Assembly (NCBI RefSeq): GCF_003100395.1
Contig: NZ_CP029210.1
Span: forward strand, 2,728,001-2,792,000
Origin: Aquabacterium olei
Lineage (GTDB): Bacteria > Pseudomonadota > Gammaproteobacteria > Burkholderiales > Burkholderiaceae_C
Length of the DNA stretch: 64,000 nt
Direction: 5' to 3'
The notes beneath the pieces were generated by a model. It was not told the DNA's origin. It did not search any database and saw only the letters and a list, made by a program, of their open reading frames with translations. The position numbers were made by a program, and so were the translations under genes. Every line of letters begins with the position of its first letter. Position 1 is the stretch's first letter. This document shows positions 10,562 through 21,105 of this stretch, piece after piece.

Positions 10562-10565
<4 letters not shown>
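10125..10565 (+). CDS. Hypothetical protein, 146 residues
   Basis: Not recognised. The product is mixed and beta-rich with no signal peptide or membrane segment. It has a WSFAGSEVSGWRREGDALLIRLA stretch near the N-terminus that looks like a strand pair, two cysteines close together in the middle (LCVRCDAVTEW) and a C-terminal VRCRSVALLLQPDSR. The start at 10125 is a guess; in-frame starts also lie at 10008 and 10155. It is convergent with prpR and the two stop codons share bases within CTAG (10562-10565). The coding-like composition and the tight fit between neighbours argue that it is real. No function is assigned. Confidence 0.6.
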
Positions 10566-12598
<2,033 letters not shown>

Positions 12599-15089: not shown

Positions 15090-17711
15090 ATGAGCAACAT
15101 CAACACCCAATACCGCAAGCCGCTGCCCGGCACGAACCTCGATTACTTCGACACGCAAGCTGCCGTCGAAGCCATCCAGCCCGGCGCCTGGGCCACCCTG
15201 CCCTACACCGCCCGCGTGCACGCCGAGAACATCGTGCGCAAGGCCGATCCGGCCATCGTCACCGATTGCCTCAAGCAGATCGTCGAGCGCAAGCGCGACC
15301 TGGACTTCCCCTGGTTCCCGGCCCGCGTGGCGTGCCACGACATCCTGGGTCAGACCGCCCTTGTGGACCTGGCCGGCCTGCGTGACGCCATTGCCAAGGA
15401 AGGCGGCGACCCGGCCAAGGTGAACCCGGTGGTGCCCGTGCAGCTGATCGTGGACCACTCGCTGGCTGTGGAGTGCGGGGGCTTCGACCCGCAAGCCTTC
15501 CAGAAGAACCGCGACATCGAAGAGCGCCGCAACGAAGACCGCTTCCACTTCATCGAGTGGACGAAGAAGGCCTTCGCCAACGTGGACGTGATCCCCGCGG
15601 GCAACGGCATCATGCACCAGATCAACCTGGAGAAGATGTCGCCGGTGATCCATGCCGACAACGGCGTGGCCTACCCCGACACCTGCGTCGGCACCGACTC
15701 GCACACCCCGCACGTGGACGCGCTGGGCGTGATCGCCATCGGCGTGGGCGGCCTGGAAGCCGAGAACGTGATGCTGGGCCGCGCCTCGTGGATGCGCTTG
15801 CCTGAAATCGTGGGTGTGAAGCTCACCGGCCAACGCCAACCCGGCATCACCGCCACCGACGTGGTGCTGGCCCTGACCGAGTTCCTGCGCAAGAACAAGG
15901 TGGTGGGCGCCTACCTCGAGTTCTACGGCGAAGGTGCGTCGAAGCTGACGATTGGCGACCGCGCCACCATCTCGAACATGGCCCCCGAATACGGCGCGAC
16001 CGCCGCCATGTTCAGCATCGACGAACAGACGCTGGAGTACCTGACGCTGACCGGCCGGACGGCCGAGCAGGTCAAGCTGGTCGAAACCTATGCCAAGACC
16101 GCGGGCCTGTGGTCCGACAGCCTGAAGAACGCCGTGTACGAGCGCAACCTCGAGTTCGACCTGTCGAGCGTGGTGCGCAACATGGCCGGTCCGTCGAACC
16201 CGCACGCCCGTGTGGCCACGTCGGATCTGGCCTCGAAGGGCATTGCCGGCCAATGGCAGATGCCGGCTGCCGGTGAAGGCACCATGCCCGACGGCGCCGT
16301 GATCATCGCGGCCATCACCTCGTGCACCAACACCTCCAACCCTCGCAACGTGATCGCGGCCGCCCTGCTGGCCCGCAACGCCAACAAGCTGGGCCTGACG
16401 CGCAAGCCCTGGGTGAAGTCGTCGCTGGCCCCTGGCTCGAAGGCGGTGGAGCTGTACCTGAAGGAAGCCAACCTGCTGGGCGACCTGGAGAAGCTCGGCT
16501 TCGGCATCGTGGCCTTTGCCTGCACCACCTGCAACGGCATGTCGGGCGCGCTCGACCCGGTCATCCAGAAGGAAATCGTTGACCGCGACCTGTACGCCAC
16601 CGCCGTGCTCTCGGGCAACCGCAACTTCGACGGTCGCATCCACCCGTATGCCAAGCAGGCCTTCCTGGCCTCGCCGCCGCTGGTGGTCGCCTACGCCATC
16701 GCCGGCACCGTGCGCTTCGACATCGAAAACGACGTGCTGACGGTCGTCGATGGCAAGGAAATCCGCCTCAAGGACATCTGGCCGTCGGACGAAGAGATCG
16801 ACGCCGTGGTCAAGACCGCCGTGAAGCCCGAGCAGTACCGCGCCGTGTACGAGCCCATGTTCGCCATCCAGGCCGACAAGGGTGAGAAGGTCAGCCCGCA
16901 GTACGACTGGCGCCCGATGTCGACCTACATCCGCCGCCCGCCCTACTGGGACACCGAAGGCGTCGGGGCTCTCGCCGCCAACCCGCGCACGCTGAAAGCC
17001 ATGCGCCCGCTGGCCATCCTGCCGGACAACATCACCACCGACCACCTGTCGCCGTCCAACGCGATCCTGATGAACTCGGCCGCCGGTGAGTACCTGCACA
17101 AGATGGGCCTGCCCGAGGAGGACTTCAACTCCTACGCCACCCACCGTGGCGACCACCTGACCGCCATGCGCGCCACCTTCGCCAACCCCACGCTCAAGAA
17201 CGAGATGGTGCGCAAGGAAGACGGCTCGATCAAGGTGGGCTCGTGGGCCCGCGTGGAGCCCGAGGGCCAGGTCATGCGCATGTGGGAGGCGATGGAGACC
17301 TACCTCAACCGCCGCCAGCCGCTGATCATCATCGCAGGCGCCGACTACGGTCAGGGCTCCTCGCGTGACTGGGCGGCCAAGGGCGTGCGCCTGGCGGGTG
17401 TCGAGACGGTCGTGGCCGAAGGCTTCGAGCGCATCCACCGCACCAACCTGATCGGCATGGGCGTGCTGCCGCTGGAGTTCAAGCCGGGCACCACCCGCCT
17501 GACCCTGGGCCTGGACGGCACCGAAACCTTCGACGTGGAAGGCGACCTGAAGCCGCGCGCCGACCTGACGCTGGTGATCCACCGCAAGAATGGTCAGACC
17601 GAGCGCGTGACCGTGACCAGCCGCCTGGACACCGCCGAAGAAGTGTCGGTGTACGAAGCCGGTGGCGTGCTGCAGCGTTTCGCCCAGGACTTCCTGGCGG
17701 CGAACAAGTGA
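15090..17711 (+). CDS. acnD: 2-methylcitrate dehydratase, Fe/S-dependent (AcnD)
   Basis: Aconitase-family enzyme that dehydrates 2-methylcitrate to an isomer of 2-methylaconitate; PrpF then isomerises the product, so the pair replaces PrpD. The 873-residue product carries the cluster cysteines Cys412 ([10 protein letters not shown]), Cys478 and Cys481 (ACTTCNG), and the C-terminal swivel motif [13 protein letters not shown]. The wording CNGMSGALDP and the genomic link to prpB, prpC and prpF favour AcnD over AcnA; a true AcnA is present at 36731. No prpD is seen. The ATG at 15090 begins family-like sequence. After it, 109 bases with two hairpins separate it from the three-gene cassette. Confidence 0.94.
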   Translation: MSNINTQYRKPLPGTNLDYFDTQAAVEAIQPGAWATLPYTARVHAENIVRKADPAIVTDCLKQIVERKRDLDFPWFPARVACHDILGQTALVDLAGLRDAIAKEGGDPAKVNPVVPVQLIVDHSLAVECGGFDPQAFQKNRDIEERRNEDRFHFIEWTKKAFANVDVIPAGNGIMHQINLEKMSPVIHADNGVAYPDTCVGTDSHTPHVDALGVIAIGVGGLEAENVMLGRASWMRLPEIVGVKLTGQRQPGITATDVVLALTEFLRKNKVVGAYLEFYGEGASKLTIGDRATISNMAPEYGATAAMFSIDEQTLEYLTLTGRTAEQVKLVETYAKTAGLWSDSLKNAVYERNLEFDLSSVVRNMAGPSNPHARVATSDLASKGIAGQWQMPAAGEGTMPDGAVIIAAITSCTNTSNPRNVIAAALLARNANKLGLTRKPWVKSSLAPGSKAVELYLKEANLLGDLEKLGFGIVAFACTTCNGMSGALDPVIQKEIVDRDLYATAVLSGNRNFDGRIHPYAKQAFLASPPLVVAYAIAGTVRFDIENDVLTVVDGKEIRLKDIWPSDEEIDAVVKTAVKPEQYRAVYEPMFAIQADKGEKVSPQYDWRPMSTYIRRPPYWDTEGVGALAANPRTLKAMRPLAILPDNITTDHLSPSNAILMNSAAGEYLHKMGLPEEDFNSYATHRGDHLTAMRATFANPTLKNEMVRKEDGSIKVGSWARVEPEGQVMRMWEAMETYLNRRQPLIIIAGADYGQGSSRDWAAKGVRLAGVETVVAEGFERIHRTNLIGMGVLPLEFKPGTTRLTLGLDGTETFDVEGDLKPRADLTLVIHRKNGQTERVTVTSRLDTAEEVSVYEAGGVLQRFAQDFLAANK

Positions 17712-17820: not shown

Positions 17821-18657
17821 ATGCTGACTTCTCTGCGCATCCGTCACTTCCGGGCGTGGCAAGACACCGGGCCCGTGCGGCTCGCGCCGCTCACCGTGTT
17901 CTTCGGTGAGCACGGCACCGGCAAGAGCAGCCTGGGCCATGCACTGGCCCTGCTGGATCCGCACGCCCACGAGGCGGTGTCCGGCCAGCAGGCCGGCTTT
18001 GCGCTGGATGCGGTGTGGCAAGCCGGTGGCCAGCGTGTCAGTCGACACCTTTCCGCAGCATCGGCTCCTGAGCGAGCGTCAGCCCCCCTCACCTTTGTCG
18101 ACACCGAGGCACAGGGAGACCGCATCCCGCTGCCGTCGGCCGGCGACCCGGCCGTGTCGCACTGGCTGCACGCCATGGGCCTGGATGCGCCCTCGACGGC
18201 CTCGCAAACCGGCCGCAGTGCCCGCCATGCACAGCACCTGCTGGGGCATCTCCTCAACGCCCCGGAGGGTGGCACCATCTGGCTCGAGCACCCGGAGAAC
18301 CACCTGCACCCGAAGGCCCAGGCCGTGCTGGCCGACGCCCTGATCGCCGCTGTCCAGTCGACGGCTGAAGGTCAGCATCCAGGCGTTCAGTGCATCGTCG
18401 AAAGCCACTCCGAAGCCCTCCTCAACCGCCTGCAACGCCGCGTGGCCGAAGCGGTGATCCCGCCCGAGGAGCTCGCGCTGTATGTGTGCCGCCTGCGTGG
18501 CCCGCATGCCGAACTGGAAGCACTGCGGCTCAATGCCTATGGTGACATCGAGAACTGGCCCGAAGACCTGTTCGGTCACGACATGACCGACATCACCGCC
18601 CGCACGGTGGCTGCATTGCGTCGCCGCCAGGCCGAGGCCCGGGAGCCGAAGGCATGA
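17821..18657 (+). CDS. AAA ATPase of the DUF3696/OLD-like type, first gene of an ATPase-PIN-RNA ligase cassette
   Basis: An ABC/SMC-like ATPase of 278 residues. It starts with the characteristic LRIRHFRAW strand followed by Walker A GEHGTGKSS (Gly29-Ser36). The C-terminal half has IWLEHPENHLHPKAQ, the Walker B-like box of RecF/OLD/DUF3696 ATPases, and ESHSEALLNRLQRRVAEAVI, the DUF3696-type sensor region. At 278 residues it is shorter than the 350-400 usual for such proteins; the insert between the halves is reduced to about 100 residues. The ATG at 17821 has no clear ribosome site. The stop overlaps the next start by ATGA. It lies between acnD and prpF, two partner enzymes, and probably powers or gates the nuclease/ligase pair; that role is inferred. 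Base composition is like the neighbours. Confidence 0.82.
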   Translation: MLTSLRIRHFRAWQDTGPVRLAPLTVFFGEHGTGKSSLGHALALLDPHAHEAVSGQQAGFALDAVWQAGGQRVSRHLSAASAPERASAPLTFVDTEAQGDRIPLPSAGDPAVSHWLHAMGLDAPSTASQTGRSARHAQHLLGHLLNAPEGGTIWLEHPENHLHPKAQAVLADALIAAVQSTAEGQHPGVQCIVESHSEALLNRLQRRVAEAVIPPEELALYVCRLRGPHAELEALRLNAYGDIENWPEDLFGHDMTDITARTVAALRRRQAEAREPKA

Positions 18658-19202
18658 AGGCCGTGATCGACACCAATGTGCTGCTGGTCGCCAACGGCCA
18701 GCACCCCGATGTCTCGCCCGACTGCGTGACCGCCTGTGTAGAGCGACTGCAGGCCATGCAGTCCGATGGCGTGACGGTCATCGACGACGGCCATCGCATC
18801 CTGGACGAGTACCTGCACAAGACCCAGGCCAACCGCCCCAAGGGCGTCGGCGACGTGTTCCTGAAATGGCTGCTTCGCCAGGTGGCCAATCCTCAGCGCG
18901 TCGAACAGGTGCCACTGACGGAGACCGGCGAGCAGACCTACGCCGAGTTCCCGTCGACCGCCCTGCAACCCCGCTTCGACCCATCCGACCGCAAGTTCGC
19001 CGCCGTCGCCCACGCCCACCCCGACAAGCCGCCCATCTGGGAAGCCGCCGACAGCAAGTGGCTGGACTGGTGGCCGGCCCTCAAGGCCTGCGGCGTGCAG
19101 GTCGAGTTCCTCTGCCCCGAAGACACGTGCGACTTCTACCGCAAGAAGTTTCCGGACCACCCGCTTCCGCCGCTGCCTCGCGCACCGGCCACCTCAGCAT
19201 GA
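18654..19202 (+). CDS. PIN-like nuclease domain protein
   Basis: A 182-residue protein with the PIN fold pattern. The N-terminal strand is MKAVIDTNVLL with Asp6. An acidic helix ILDEYLHK carries Glu52, FDPSDRKFAAVAHAH carries Asp112, and AADSKWLDW carries Asp133, which together would form the metal site of a ribonuclease. The central part is longer than in VapC toxins (130-140 residues) and ends with a proline-rich tail. The start overlaps the ATPase stop and its own stop overlaps the ligase start, both by ATGA, so the three are translationally coupled. No antitoxin gene is adjacent, which argues against a simple VapBC pair. The RNA target is unknown; the nuclease function is inferred from the acidic quartet. 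Confidence 0.75.
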   Translation: MKAVIDTNVLLVANGQHPDVSPDCVTACVERLQAMQSDGVTVIDDGHRILDEYLHKTQANRPKGVGDVFLKWLLRQVANPQRVEQVPLTETGEQTYAEFPSTALQPRFDPSDRKFAAVAHAHPDKPPIWEAADSKWLDWWPALKACGVQVEFLCPEDTCDFYRKKFPDHPLPPLPRAPATSA

Positions 19203-19897
19203 CGGATTTCTTTCGCTTCCCGCACACCCCGCACATCGCCTGGCTGGCTGCCGGCGAACCGCGCGAGGACAAGGTGCTGTCGCCCGCCGAGGCCCATGCC
19301 CTGCTGGCACACAAGGTCGTGGTCGAAGAGAAGCTCGACGGCGCGAACCTCGGCTTCTCGCTCGACGAGCACGGCGAGTTGCGTGCGCAGAACCGCGGGC
19401 AGTATCTGAGCGATCCGCACGCGGGCCAGTTCGCCCGCATCCCGCTGTGGCTGCAGCAGCATGGCGACGCCTTGCTGGCCGAGCTGACACCGGACCTCAT
19501 CTTCTTCGGCGAATGGTGCGCCGCGCGCCACTCGCTGGACTATGGCGCCCTGCCCGACTGGTTCCTGTTGTTCGACGTGTACGAACGCAGCCAGGGCCGC
19601 TTCTGGAGCACCGCCCGCCGCAATGCGCTGGCCGCCCGCGCCGGCCTGGTCACCGTGCCCCGCCTGTTCGAGGGCCACACCACACTGGACGCGCTCAAGC
19701 TCATGGTGTCCAGCACCCCGAGTCGCTACCGCAAGGGCCCGCTCGAAGGCATGGTGATCCGCCACGAATCCGAAACCTGGTGTGAAAACCGAGCCAAGCT
19801 CGTGCGCCCCGATTTCACCCAGGCCATCGACACCCACTGGCGCAAACGCGCCATCGAATGGAACCGCGTCGACCACGATGCGGCCTACCGCAACTGA
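19199..19897 (+). CDS. Minimal ATP-dependent RNA ligase family protein
   Basis: A 232-residue nucleotidyltransferase with the ligase motifs in order: motif I EEKLDGANLGF with Lys45 as the AMP acceptor, motif III FFGEWC (Glu105), motif IV LEGMVIRHE (Glu183), and motif V AKLVRPDF (Lys200). The N-terminal FPHTPHIAWL and the SLDYGALPDWFLLFDVY stretch after motif III are typical of a widespread short bacterial RNA ligase family (RNA_ligase, PF09414 type) lacking the C-terminal domain of T4 Rnl2. It would seal RNA ends, in the cytoplasm. It is coupled to the PIN gene by an ATGA overlap, and prpF starts 20 bases after its stop. Pairing of an RNA-cutting and an RNA-sealing enzyme suggests RNA repair, defence or controlled processing. 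The substrate is unknown. Confidence 0.85.
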   Translation: MTDFFRFPHTPHIAWLAAGEPREDKVLSPAEAHALLAHKVVVEEKLDGANLGFSLDEHGELRAQNRGQYLSDPHAGQFARIPLWLQQHGDALLAELTPDLIFFGEWCAARHSLDYGALPDWFLLFDVYERSQGRFWSTARRNALAARAGLVTVPRLFEGHTTLDALKLMVSSTPSRYRKGPLEGMVIRHESETWCENRAKLVRPDFTQAIDTHWRKRAIEWNRVDHDAAYRN

Positions 19898-19917: not shown

Positions 19918-21105
19918 ATGGCACACGCACCCCAAGTCAAGATCCCGGCCACCTACATCCGCGGCGGCACCAGCAAGGGCGTCTTCTTCCGCCTGCAGGA
20001 CCTCCCCGCAGCCTGCCAGGTGCCCGGCGAAGCGCGCGACAAGCTGTTCCTGCGCGTCATCGGCAGCCCCGACCCGTATGCGGCCCACATCGACGGCATG
20101 GGCGGCGCCACGTCCAGCACCAGCAAGTGCGTGATCCTGTCAAAGGCCAGCCAGCCCGACCACGATGTGGACTACCTTTACGGCCAGATCTCGATCGACA
20201 AGCCCTTCGTGGACTGGTCCGGCAACTGCGGCAACCTGTCCACCGCCGCGGGCGCCTTCGCGATCCACGCCGGCCTGGTCGACCCGGCCCGCATCCCGCA
20301 GAACGGCACGGCCGTGGTTCGCATCTGGCAGGCCAACATCGGCAAGACCATCATCGCGCACGTGCCCGTCACCAACGGCCAGGTGCAGGAAACCGGCGAT
20401 TTCGAGCTCGATGGCGTGACCTTCCCGGCCGCTGAGATCGTGCTCGAGTTCATGGACCCGTCCGACGATGGCGACGAAGGCGGCTCGATGTTCCCCACCG
20501 GCAACCTGGTGGACGACCTGGAAGTGCCCGGCATCGGCATGCTGAAGGCCACGATGATCACGGCCGGCATCCCGACCGTGTTCGTCAATGCCAAGGACAT
20601 CGGCTACACCGGCATGGAACTGCGTGAGCACATCAACAGCGACGCCGAAGCGCTCAAGCGCTTCGAGGCCATCCGCGTGGCGGGTGCGCTGCGCATGGGC
20701 CTGATCAAGACGCCCGAAGAAGCCGCCACCCGCCAGCACACGCCCAAGATCGCCTTCGTCGCACCGCCCACCACCTACACCGCATCCAGCGGCAAGACCA
20801 TCGAGGCGGTGGACGTCGATCTGCTGGTGCGCGCGCTGTCGATGGGCAAGCTGCACCACGCCATGATGGGCACCTGTGCGGTGGCGATCGGCACGGCAGC
20901 CGCCATCCCCGGCACGCTGGTCAACCAGGCCGCTGGCGGCGGCGAGCGCGAGGCCGTGCGCTTCGGCCACCCCTCCGGCACCCTGCGCGTCGGCGCCCAG
21001 GCGAAACAAGTCAACGGTCAGTGGACCGTCACCAAGGCCATCATGAGCCGAAGCGCCCGCATCCTCATGGAAGGCTGGGTGCGCGTGCCGGGCGACACGT
21101 TCTGA
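19918..21105 (+). CDS. prpF: 2-methylaconitate cis-trans isomerase
   Basis: Works after AcnD in the methylcitrate cycle, converting its product to cis-2-methylaconitate for the aconitase that hydrates it. The 395-residue product has the PrpF N-terminal signature ATYIRGGTSKGVFF, the DGMGGATSSTSKC motif and GNCGNLSTAAGAFAI, giving a DapF-like two-domain fold. The ATG at 19918 is chosen at the start of family sequence, 20 bases after the RNA ligase gene. That places it on the same message as the cassette, so the foreign-looking genes are almost certainly transcribed with prp. It ends the prp row; a hairpin (21123-21141) without a T run follows. Confidence 0.94.
   Translation: MAHAPQVKIPATYIRGGTSKGVFFRLQDLPAACQVPGEARDKLFLRVIGSPDPYAAHIDGMGGATSSTSKCVILSKASQPDHDVDYLYGQISIDKPFVDWSGNCGNLSTAAGAFAIHAGLVDPARIPQNGTAVVRIWQANIGKTIIAHVPVTNGQVQETGDFELDGVTFPAAEIVLEFMDPSDDGDEGGSMFPTGNLVDDLEVPGIGMLKATMITAGIPTVFVNAKDIGYTGMELREHINSDAEALKRFEAIRVAGALRMGLIKTPEEAATRQHTPKIAFVAPPTTYTASSGKTIEAVDVDLLVRALSMGKLHHAMMGTCAVAIGTAAAIPGTLVNQAAGGGEREAVRFGHPSGTLRVGAQAKQVNGQWTVTKAIMSRSARILMEGWVRVPGDTF

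Follow-up and report, generated by a model that had tools for sequence, protein, structure and literature searches.

The genome of Aquabacterium olei (assembly GCF_003100395.1, contig NZ_CP029210.1) carries, between the host genes acnD and prpF, three overlapping genes for an ATPase, a PIN-fold nuclease and a predicted RNA ligase, in this order. This cassette is analysed here within a window of 64,000 nucleotides (positions 2,728,001 to 2,792,000 of the contig; all positions below are those of the window) and is compared with related loci, designated by L numbers, and with related genomes, designated by G numbers, G000 being the genome holding the window. The presence of the trio between acnD and prpF in Aquabacterium is confirmed as real, and the comparison supports a genuine mobile three-gene unit that recurs in unrelated surroundings, frequently near restriction genes. 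The ATPase and the nuclease belong to the catalogued candidate HEC-03 of the PADLOC collection, while the conserved, exchangeable RNA ligase and the shrunken form in the prp operon are apparently undescribed.

The Cassette and Its Proteins

The cassette comprises the following features, all on the + strand.

17821..18657, + strand: shortened SMC/OLD-like ABC ATPase of the HEC-03B family with a DUF3696 C-terminus, 278 amino acids (Pfam, PADLOC, alignments, AF2 model, Foldseek)
18654..19202, + strand: PIN-fold nuclease of the HEC-03A family, 182 amino acids, with the acidic residues D6, E52, D109, D112 and D133
19199..19897, + strand: minimal ATP-dependent RNA ligase, PF09414, 232 amino acids (Pfam 2.7e-34)
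18654..18657, + strand: ATGA start-stop overlap of ATPase and PIN genes, the same -4 spacing being found at 33 of 61 related loci
19199..19202, + strand: ATGA start-stop overlap of PIN and ligase genes, the same -4 spacing being found at 24 of 61 related loci

Both overlaps thus lie where the original prediction, made from the DNA alone, had placed them. The second protein is assigned to the PIN class on account of a second-look structural alignment, its acidic residues and PADLOC: the HEC-03A model matches residues 1-160 of 182 at 1.5e-28, the protein folds as a PIN domain carrying three to four acidic residues, and the fold is nearest to VapC toxins (Z 9.4 to VapC21 vs 6.3-6.8 to HARP entries). 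PIN_3 is its only Pfam match at E up to 1; a Foldseek search with the PIN model found no PIN structure at E below 0.001, and searches of solved structures by sequence gave no usable homologue. The third protein is a predicted PF09414 RNA ligase with a full set of nucleotidyltransferase motifs, which we take to be motifs I (K45LDG), III (FGE105), IV (E183G) and V (K200). Residues K45, D47, G48, E105, E183, G184 and K200 are invariant in 93 of 93 aligned rows, and the active sites of PIN and ligase homologues have remained intact; their loss in most homologues would have spoken against the original prediction. In Pfam at E up to 1 the ligase matches only the RNA ligase family; its match to the TIGR01209 RNA ligase is weak (19.5 bits vs a cut-off of 136.9), and no PADLOC model was matched by the three ligases scanned, the window ligase included.

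The ATPase of the window is a shortened protein. It has retained what are presumably the Walker A motif (G29-EHGTG-K35-S36), the Walker B region TIWLEHPENHLHP (152-164) and the motif ESHSE (194-198). Alignment with a 465-residue relative places a gap of approximately 187 residues in the middle of the protein; the missing core region is kept in the aligned full-length relatives and is absent in the window and its close relatives, so that the core between P-loop and signature is not intact. At the place of the signature DVGFGVSQ, DAPSTASQ (122-129) was matched by eye, both signature glycines being gone. The signature is not regarded as wholly deleted, because D122, S128 and Q129 retain the spacing of DVGFGVSQ; this pairing by eye was not reproduced by alignment. 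In the model, residue 129 begins a helix. The HEC-03B model of PADLOC matches the window ATPase at 1.8e-41, in two stretches owing to the missing middle, and the full-length relative at L067 at 8.7e-130. Of the 68 ATPases encoded in the 80 loci described below, only those at L026-L028 share the short form, all in prp operons like that of the window; two further ATPases of the 68 are shortened by contig ends. The AF2 model of the window ATPase (pLDDT 81.2, pTM 0.84) retains an SMC-head-like core, and the nearest structures in Foldseek are the ATPases of retron Eco8, SMC head, Rad50, PtuA and GajA.

Selection on the window copy has been estimated from the ratio of nonsynonymous to synonymous substitution rates (dN/dS). 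The ATPase gives 0.27-0.31 against three relatives, with a synonymous excess at p 3.3e-6 between the window and L014. Its first 45 residues have zero non-synonymous changes, and residues 46-144 give 0.39-0.62 in five of six comparisons, the sixth being without synonymous change. The PIN and ligase genes give 0.12-0.23 and 0.10-0.30, respectively, vs 0.04 for acnD and 0.03-0.08 for prpF; constraint is weaker on all three cassette genes than on acnD and, for the most part, than on prpF. All three frames are open in four records. Judged from these ratios, all three genes of the window are under purifying selection, and the cassette does not look dead.

Distribution and Gene Order

A scan of a genome collection led by the ligase yielded 468 stretches encoding ligase relatives, the best 80 of which were kept. 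The trio is recognised by profile in 67 of these 80 loci and, with a divergent PIN protein identified by eye at L043, in 68, in the order ATPase-PIN-ligase. These loci belong mostly to beta- and gammaproteobacteria, and the closest named records that share the cassette come from Aquabacterium. Among the loci without a trio, L076, L079 and L080 have a PIN-ligase pair without the ATPase in one shared place, L046, L085, L087 and L104 are cut by a contig end, and L054 and L060 retain a PIN fragment.

The set of 80 is biased to near relatives and was fetched by the ligase; searches led by the PIN protein remove the ligase bias. With HEC-03A, matches were found in 13 of 398 (phylum sample), 10 of 399 and 6 of 369 genomes; the samples overlap and give 23 distinct genomes. 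The ATPase is adjacent in all 23, a ligase lies within 1.5 kb in 17, no ligase is found in five (L109, L110, L119, L179 and L180), and one locus (L178) ends with its contig. A 64-row PIN profile matched 13 of 399 genomes, of which three were new, all with full trios. In the 26 genomes obtained by PIN-led searches, the ATPase is beside the PIN gene in every case, and the ligase is present in 20 of the 25 loci that could be judged.

Within Aquabacterium, the PIN gene is found in 13 of 26 genomes, and the identical 13 carry the ligase. The ATPase adjoins this pair in three of them (G000, G004 and G007) and does not adjoin it in the other ten, nine of which have the pair beside what we take to be exeA- and exeB-like genes; the tenth lies at a contig end. 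Across the 38 genomes found via the PIN protein, it is always accompanied by the ATPase, the ligase or both. The DNA of a trio from Lelliottia had no match among 20,395 Escherichia coli records. Separately, distant RNA ligases (32-34 percent) are encoded on plasmids of Pseudomonas and Variovorax (L123:5956-7974 and L125:5965-8458), followed by an AAA ATPase gene; no PIN protein was recognised by profile at either locus, and they are perhaps another ligase-ATPase unit.

Mobility and Restriction-Gene Neighbours

Trios, their genes confirmed by profile, were found on the mobilizable plasmid pAcX50e of Azotobacter, on pTM2 of Tistrella, on conjugative plasmids of Aeromonas salmonicida (pAsa9-like) and A. 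veronii, where AbiEii/AbiGii and Hok genes are annotated upstream, and on a conjugative plasmid of Rhodococcus aetherivorans, a member of another phylum, with a ligase 46 percent identical. In IMG/VR, seven of 88 candidate stretches encode ligase relatives; L151 holds a trio on a contig that may be phage or host DNA, and L150 begins at the ligase. A phage origin of the ligase was rejected, since the 10 phage records that matched did so at a distance only (26-31 percent).

The immediate neighbours (112 of 116 covered) include 16 HNH nucleases, seven to eight type IIG/DrmMI-like methylases and five Argonautes. When the 446 genes within four genes of the 80 loci were clustered and one member per cluster was scanned, a methylase cluster was found upstream in 20 of the 80 loci and an HNH cluster downstream in 24. 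The two combine at 18 loci; 17 of them are full trios, the exception being L049. An Argonaute cluster occurs in five of the 80, four of these with a restriction endonuclease (REase)-type partner. The arrangement hsdM-hsdS-[trio]-hsdR is found at L033, L036 and L041, where the ligases are near-identical, so that one recent spread may account for all three. With one further restriction cluster counted, 32 of the 80 loci have a restriction or Argonaute neighbour. The recurrence in unrelated contexts that the original prediction had named as its check has thus been found, in 68 of the 80 loci, on plasmids and beside restriction genes.

Two arrangements stand apart. At L034, L048, L052 and L068, a methylase, an REase-type Argonaute partner, an Argonaute, the trio and an HNH nuclease form a single run, and L048, L052 and L068 of this composite defence locus also have a HEC-05/PDC-M55C-like gene. 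At L049:4008-6738, a ligase without PIN lies between the same methylase and HNH clusters and adjoins a different ATPase-like gene; the slot therefore seems to take other cassettes.

Matched ATPase-PIN Cores and a Probably Exchanged Ligase

Profile scores divide the ATPases and PIN proteins into two classes, which pair strictly: among 62 loci with a full-length ATPase there are 34 A/A pairs, 28 B/B pairs and no cross pairs, five further loci having short or cut ATPases. This split is a simplification valid for the 80 loci, and L111, L113, L116, L172 and L181, found by PIN-led searches, score in between. Two class B PIN proteins scanned went unrecognised by PADLOC. The distances of ATPase and PIN are closely correlated (Mantel 0.86, 61 loci), and the ligase correlates only weakly with its partners overall (0.25 and 0.17), with values of 0.34-0.68 inside one class. 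The between-class distance is 0.67 for the ATPase, 0.73 for the PIN protein and 0.34 for the ligase, the last being equal to that of the ligase within class A. The ligase tree has 92 rows; counted over class A and B rows alone, it shows 19 changes of core class, at least nine of them being forced by well-supported branches; the core class is still clustered on this tree, an equally low count being reached in 4 to 6 of 500 shuffles. We read this pattern as one ligase type that serves two ATPase-PIN cores and is exchanged between them.

The prp Operon and the Rest of the Window

The host genes and the spacer around the cassette, with prp gene names that are partly our assumption, are as follows.

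15090..17711, + strand: acnD, host gene upstream of the insertion, adjoining the cassette also in L014, L026, L027 and L028
17712..17820, + strand: spacer between acnD and the cassette, containing two strong hairpins of 10 and 16 pairs (fold z -3.17)
19918..21105, + strand: prpF, host gene downstream of the insertion, adjoining the cassette also in L014, L026, L027 and L028

The spacer differs by one base in L014, L027 and L028, and its hairpins are without a T run. A promoter and terminator scan of the spacer found no consensus promoter and no terminator, and Rfam at gathering score had no match within the 64-kb window; the hairpins could influence the reach of transcription or of mRNA decay into the cassette.

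The original prediction had expected expression of the cassette to follow propionate induction, and this did not hold up. Among the loci seen, a cassette in the prp operon was confined to the window and three closely related Aquabacterium records, represented by L014/L026 (both from one genome), L027 and L028; of 24 prpF loci from Aquabacterium, the remaining 22 lack it. In 18 of these, both host genes are visible: the acnD-prpF gap measures 11-150 bp in 14, two hold the VapB-/VapC-like pair described below, and two have a membrane-protein-like frame (by eye). Of four further loci, three have inserts of 2.1-3.2 kb unlike the trio, and one contig has no visible acnD. The gap seems to be a general insertion spot in the genus, and its variable inserts leave a functional tie to propionate unsupported.

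The same gap holds other elements in the genus. L144 and L148 (G004 and G013) have a 680 bp gap with a VapB-/VapC-like (PIN) pair, identified by eye and constituting a second PIN module there, and at L128, L139, L182, L184 and L185, from further Aquabacterium species, the gap is filled by inserts of 0.8-3.2 kb unrelated in match to the trio, among them membrane-protein-like frames as judged by eye. PrpR of the window (10562-12598) is 80 percent identical to that of L014:471-2468 (G007), against 99 percent for PrpB, PrpC and AcnD, a difference that may mark a recombination breakpoint within the prp region.

The rest of the window is housekeeping-looking, as judged from translations. No HNH, IIG-methylase, type I or Argonaute model was matched among its 45 other genes; their PADLOC matches are RtcR-type activators (two genes) and RTasSbcB, mad2 (a methylase model) and DEDDh (one each).

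Relation to Known Systems

The PIN protein and the adjacent ATPase strongly match HEC-03A and HEC-03B, respectively. HEC denotes an Hma-embedded candidate, from a guilt-by-embedding study as cited in parts of two later articles (PMC12988326; PMC10855318). The present module differs in that its ligase has no PADLOC model, in that the strongest HEC-03A matches (L109, L110 and L179) have no ligase within 1.5 kb, and in the shortened ATPase of the window. No description of ATPase, PIN protein and ligase as one system was found in the open-licence literature; the study defining HEC lies outside this scope and may describe the ligase. The original prediction had no named system for the trio; two of the three genes do form a catalogued candidate, and the ligase as third member is apparently undescribed.

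The anticodon nucleases PrrC and RloC resemble the module in combining an ABC-type ATPase with an RNA nuclease, here a predicted one, at type I restriction systems, the trio standing between hsdS and hsdR in three loci. The relevant passages of PMC2610378 describe the tie of PrrC, an ATPase-nuclease, to a type I restriction enzyme and the repair enzymes with which T4 counters it. Type I linkage is absent among the 45 other genes of the window and occurs in 3 of the 80 relatives. The module differs from PrrC/RloC in that ATPase and nuclease are unfused in the window and in 61 complete loci compared, in that a PIN enzyme takes the place of the PrrC nuclease domain, and in that the ligase is host-owned rather than phage-owned.

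A PIN-superfamily RNase genetically linked with an RNA ligase is also found in HARP-Rnl3: HARP, a PIN-family RNase P, co-occurs with the RNA ligase Rnl3 in extremophiles, and toxin-antitoxin and RNA circularisation ideas are weighed there (PMC12153264, in the passages on this pair). The ligase of that pair is PF18330/TIGR01209, whereas the window ligase has no PF18330 match (Pfam E up to 1); furthermore, the passages describe mostly divergent genes and an extremophile range and mention no ATPase. VapBC differs as well, the PIN gene of the cassette being adjoined only by the ATPase and ligase genes, with no VapB-type antitoxin beside it. PARIS, Septu, Gabija, retron Eco8 and Ec78 likewise place an SMC/OLD-like ATPase beside a nuclease. 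These five presumably use a Toprim or HNH nuclease rather than PIN and have no ligase. Pnkp1-Rnl-Hen1 is an immunity-linked RNA repair system as portrayed in part of PMC4411300; the window ligase, by contrast, adjoins only the PIN gene and prpF, with no kinase-phosphatase or methyltransferase partner. In the sections concerned, RtcB is reported to reverse MazF cuts (PMC5408214) and PIN nucleases to be validated in phage defence (PMC13092281).

Proposed Mechanism and Alternatives

The cassette may be understood as a pared-down version of a mobile, widely distributed module of defence type, in which an ATPase gates a PIN RNase and a ligase reseals the cuts, a reading to which we give an even chance. 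An SMC-like ATPase of the HEC-03B type would bind and gate a VapC-like PIN ribonuclease of the HEC-03A type; infection, perhaps sensed when DNA or an associated restriction system is disturbed, would be the trigger, upon which the ATPase would free the PIN enzyme to cut an RNA needed for translation (tRNA is a guess). The ligase would reverse leaky or finished cleavage, resulting in a cut-and-reseal switch. Cuts by PIN enzymes leave a 5′-phosphate and a 3′-OH, and such ends are joined directly by this class of ligase with no healing enzyme; the ligase could for this reason undo PIN cuts. From fold, residues, gene order, neighbours and this chemistry we infer an RNA target, gating, resealing and a role in phage defence.

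Several observations weigh against this reading. L049, L056 and L058 have a ligase and no PIN, and 5 of 25 PIN-ATPase loci, including the strongest HEC-03A matches, have no ligase within 1.5 kb, so that the ligase is not obligatory. The ATPase-less pairs in stable chromosomal places (ten in Aquabacterium; L076, L079 and L080) fit RNA processing equally. A restriction or Argonaute cluster is absent within four genes of 48 of the 80 loci, partly owing to short contigs, and the window itself lies outside any defence island. The activities of ATPase, PIN protein and ligase are all predicted, and the PIN enzyme could cut DNA, its substrate not being decided by a fold search. In addition, PMC12988326 reports several HECs, including HEC-06, as antiviral, and HEC-03 is unnamed in its passages on this.

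The original prediction placed both enzymes under one ATPase, which is doubtful for the window copy with its shrunken ATPase, and ten Aquabacterium genomes have the PIN-ligase pair with no such ATPase adjacent. Since the ATPase has shrunk while PIN and ligase stay intact, the two enzymes of the window copy may work as an RNA system of their own, in which the ATPase is residual.

Among the alternatives, the one that survives best, although we regard it as unlikely, is an RNA maturation pair: PIN would remove a segment from a cellular RNA, by trimming or by excision, the ligase would join the ends or close them into a circle, and the ATPase would be an optional remodeller, the defence context being secondary. 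The company of exeA/exeB-like genes at 9 of 10 ATPase-less Aquabacterium pairs and the one place shared by L076, L079 and L080 favour it, as does the co-occurrence of HARP and Rnl3 in extremophiles, as far as it is treated in PMC12153264. A core RNA-processing step would hardly be expected to be so patchy (13 of 26 Aquabacterium genomes; HEC-03A in 13 of the 398 sampled), to travel on conjugative plasmids or to have restriction genes as neighbours.

Rather improbable is RNA repair against enemy nucleases, in which RNA that phage or toxin enzymes have broken would be cleaned and resealed by PIN and ligase; the module would then protect RNA instead of breaking it. It is favoured by the full conservation of the ligase motifs, a ligase that is not bound to one core and the distant plasmid ligases beside an AAA ATPase gene with no recognisable PIN, and it has precedents in Pnkp1-Rnl-Hen1 and in RtcB acting on MazF cuts, as these are presented in parts of PMC4411300 and PMC5408214. 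The module, however, is without an end-healing enzyme, prior healing being required for PrrC-type cuts in the relevant part of PMC2610378, and PIN-ATPase pairs exist without a ligase.

A decaying remnant with no present function is slightly less probable still for the window cassette. The ATPase has lost approximately 187 residues and both signature glycines, residues 46-144 have the higher dN/dS given above, and constraint on the three genes is below that on acnD and mostly below that on prpF; against decay stand the frames open in four records, the low dN/dS of all three genes, the synonymous excess in the ATPase, its first 45 unchanged residues and a model that still folds. DNA-directed defence, with PIN cutting DNA and the ligase working on DNA or RNA-DNA nicks, is the least probable. 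In its favour, the ATPase is of the SMC/Rad50/OLD class, relatives in which act on DNA, and DNA restriction enzymes are neighbours; against it, the ligase matches the RNA ligase family only (Pfam E up to 1; TIGR01209 weakly) and the PIN protein is nearest to VapC RNases.

Perspective

RNA-cutting defences have mostly been treated as one-way, and the best-known reversal, T4 repair of PrrC damage, is phage-borne. More tentatively than the reading of the cassette as a reduced defence-type module, we suggest a defence module with a built-in reset: RNA breakage would be a reversible switch, the ligase would be traded between two cores, the unit would plug in as a second line at restriction systems or Argonaute, and it would constitute a host-owned counterpart to the T4 repair. 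Trios, ATPase-PIN pairs, PIN-ligase pairs and the shrunken-ATPase form together provide a natural experiment, the chemistry being accessible in vitro with three small proteins, and a recognisable third gene is added to HEC-03, a catalogued and apparently unexplained candidate. If the reading is true, a nuclease and a ligase in one module make reversibility part of immunity, which could explain how accidental firing is survived.

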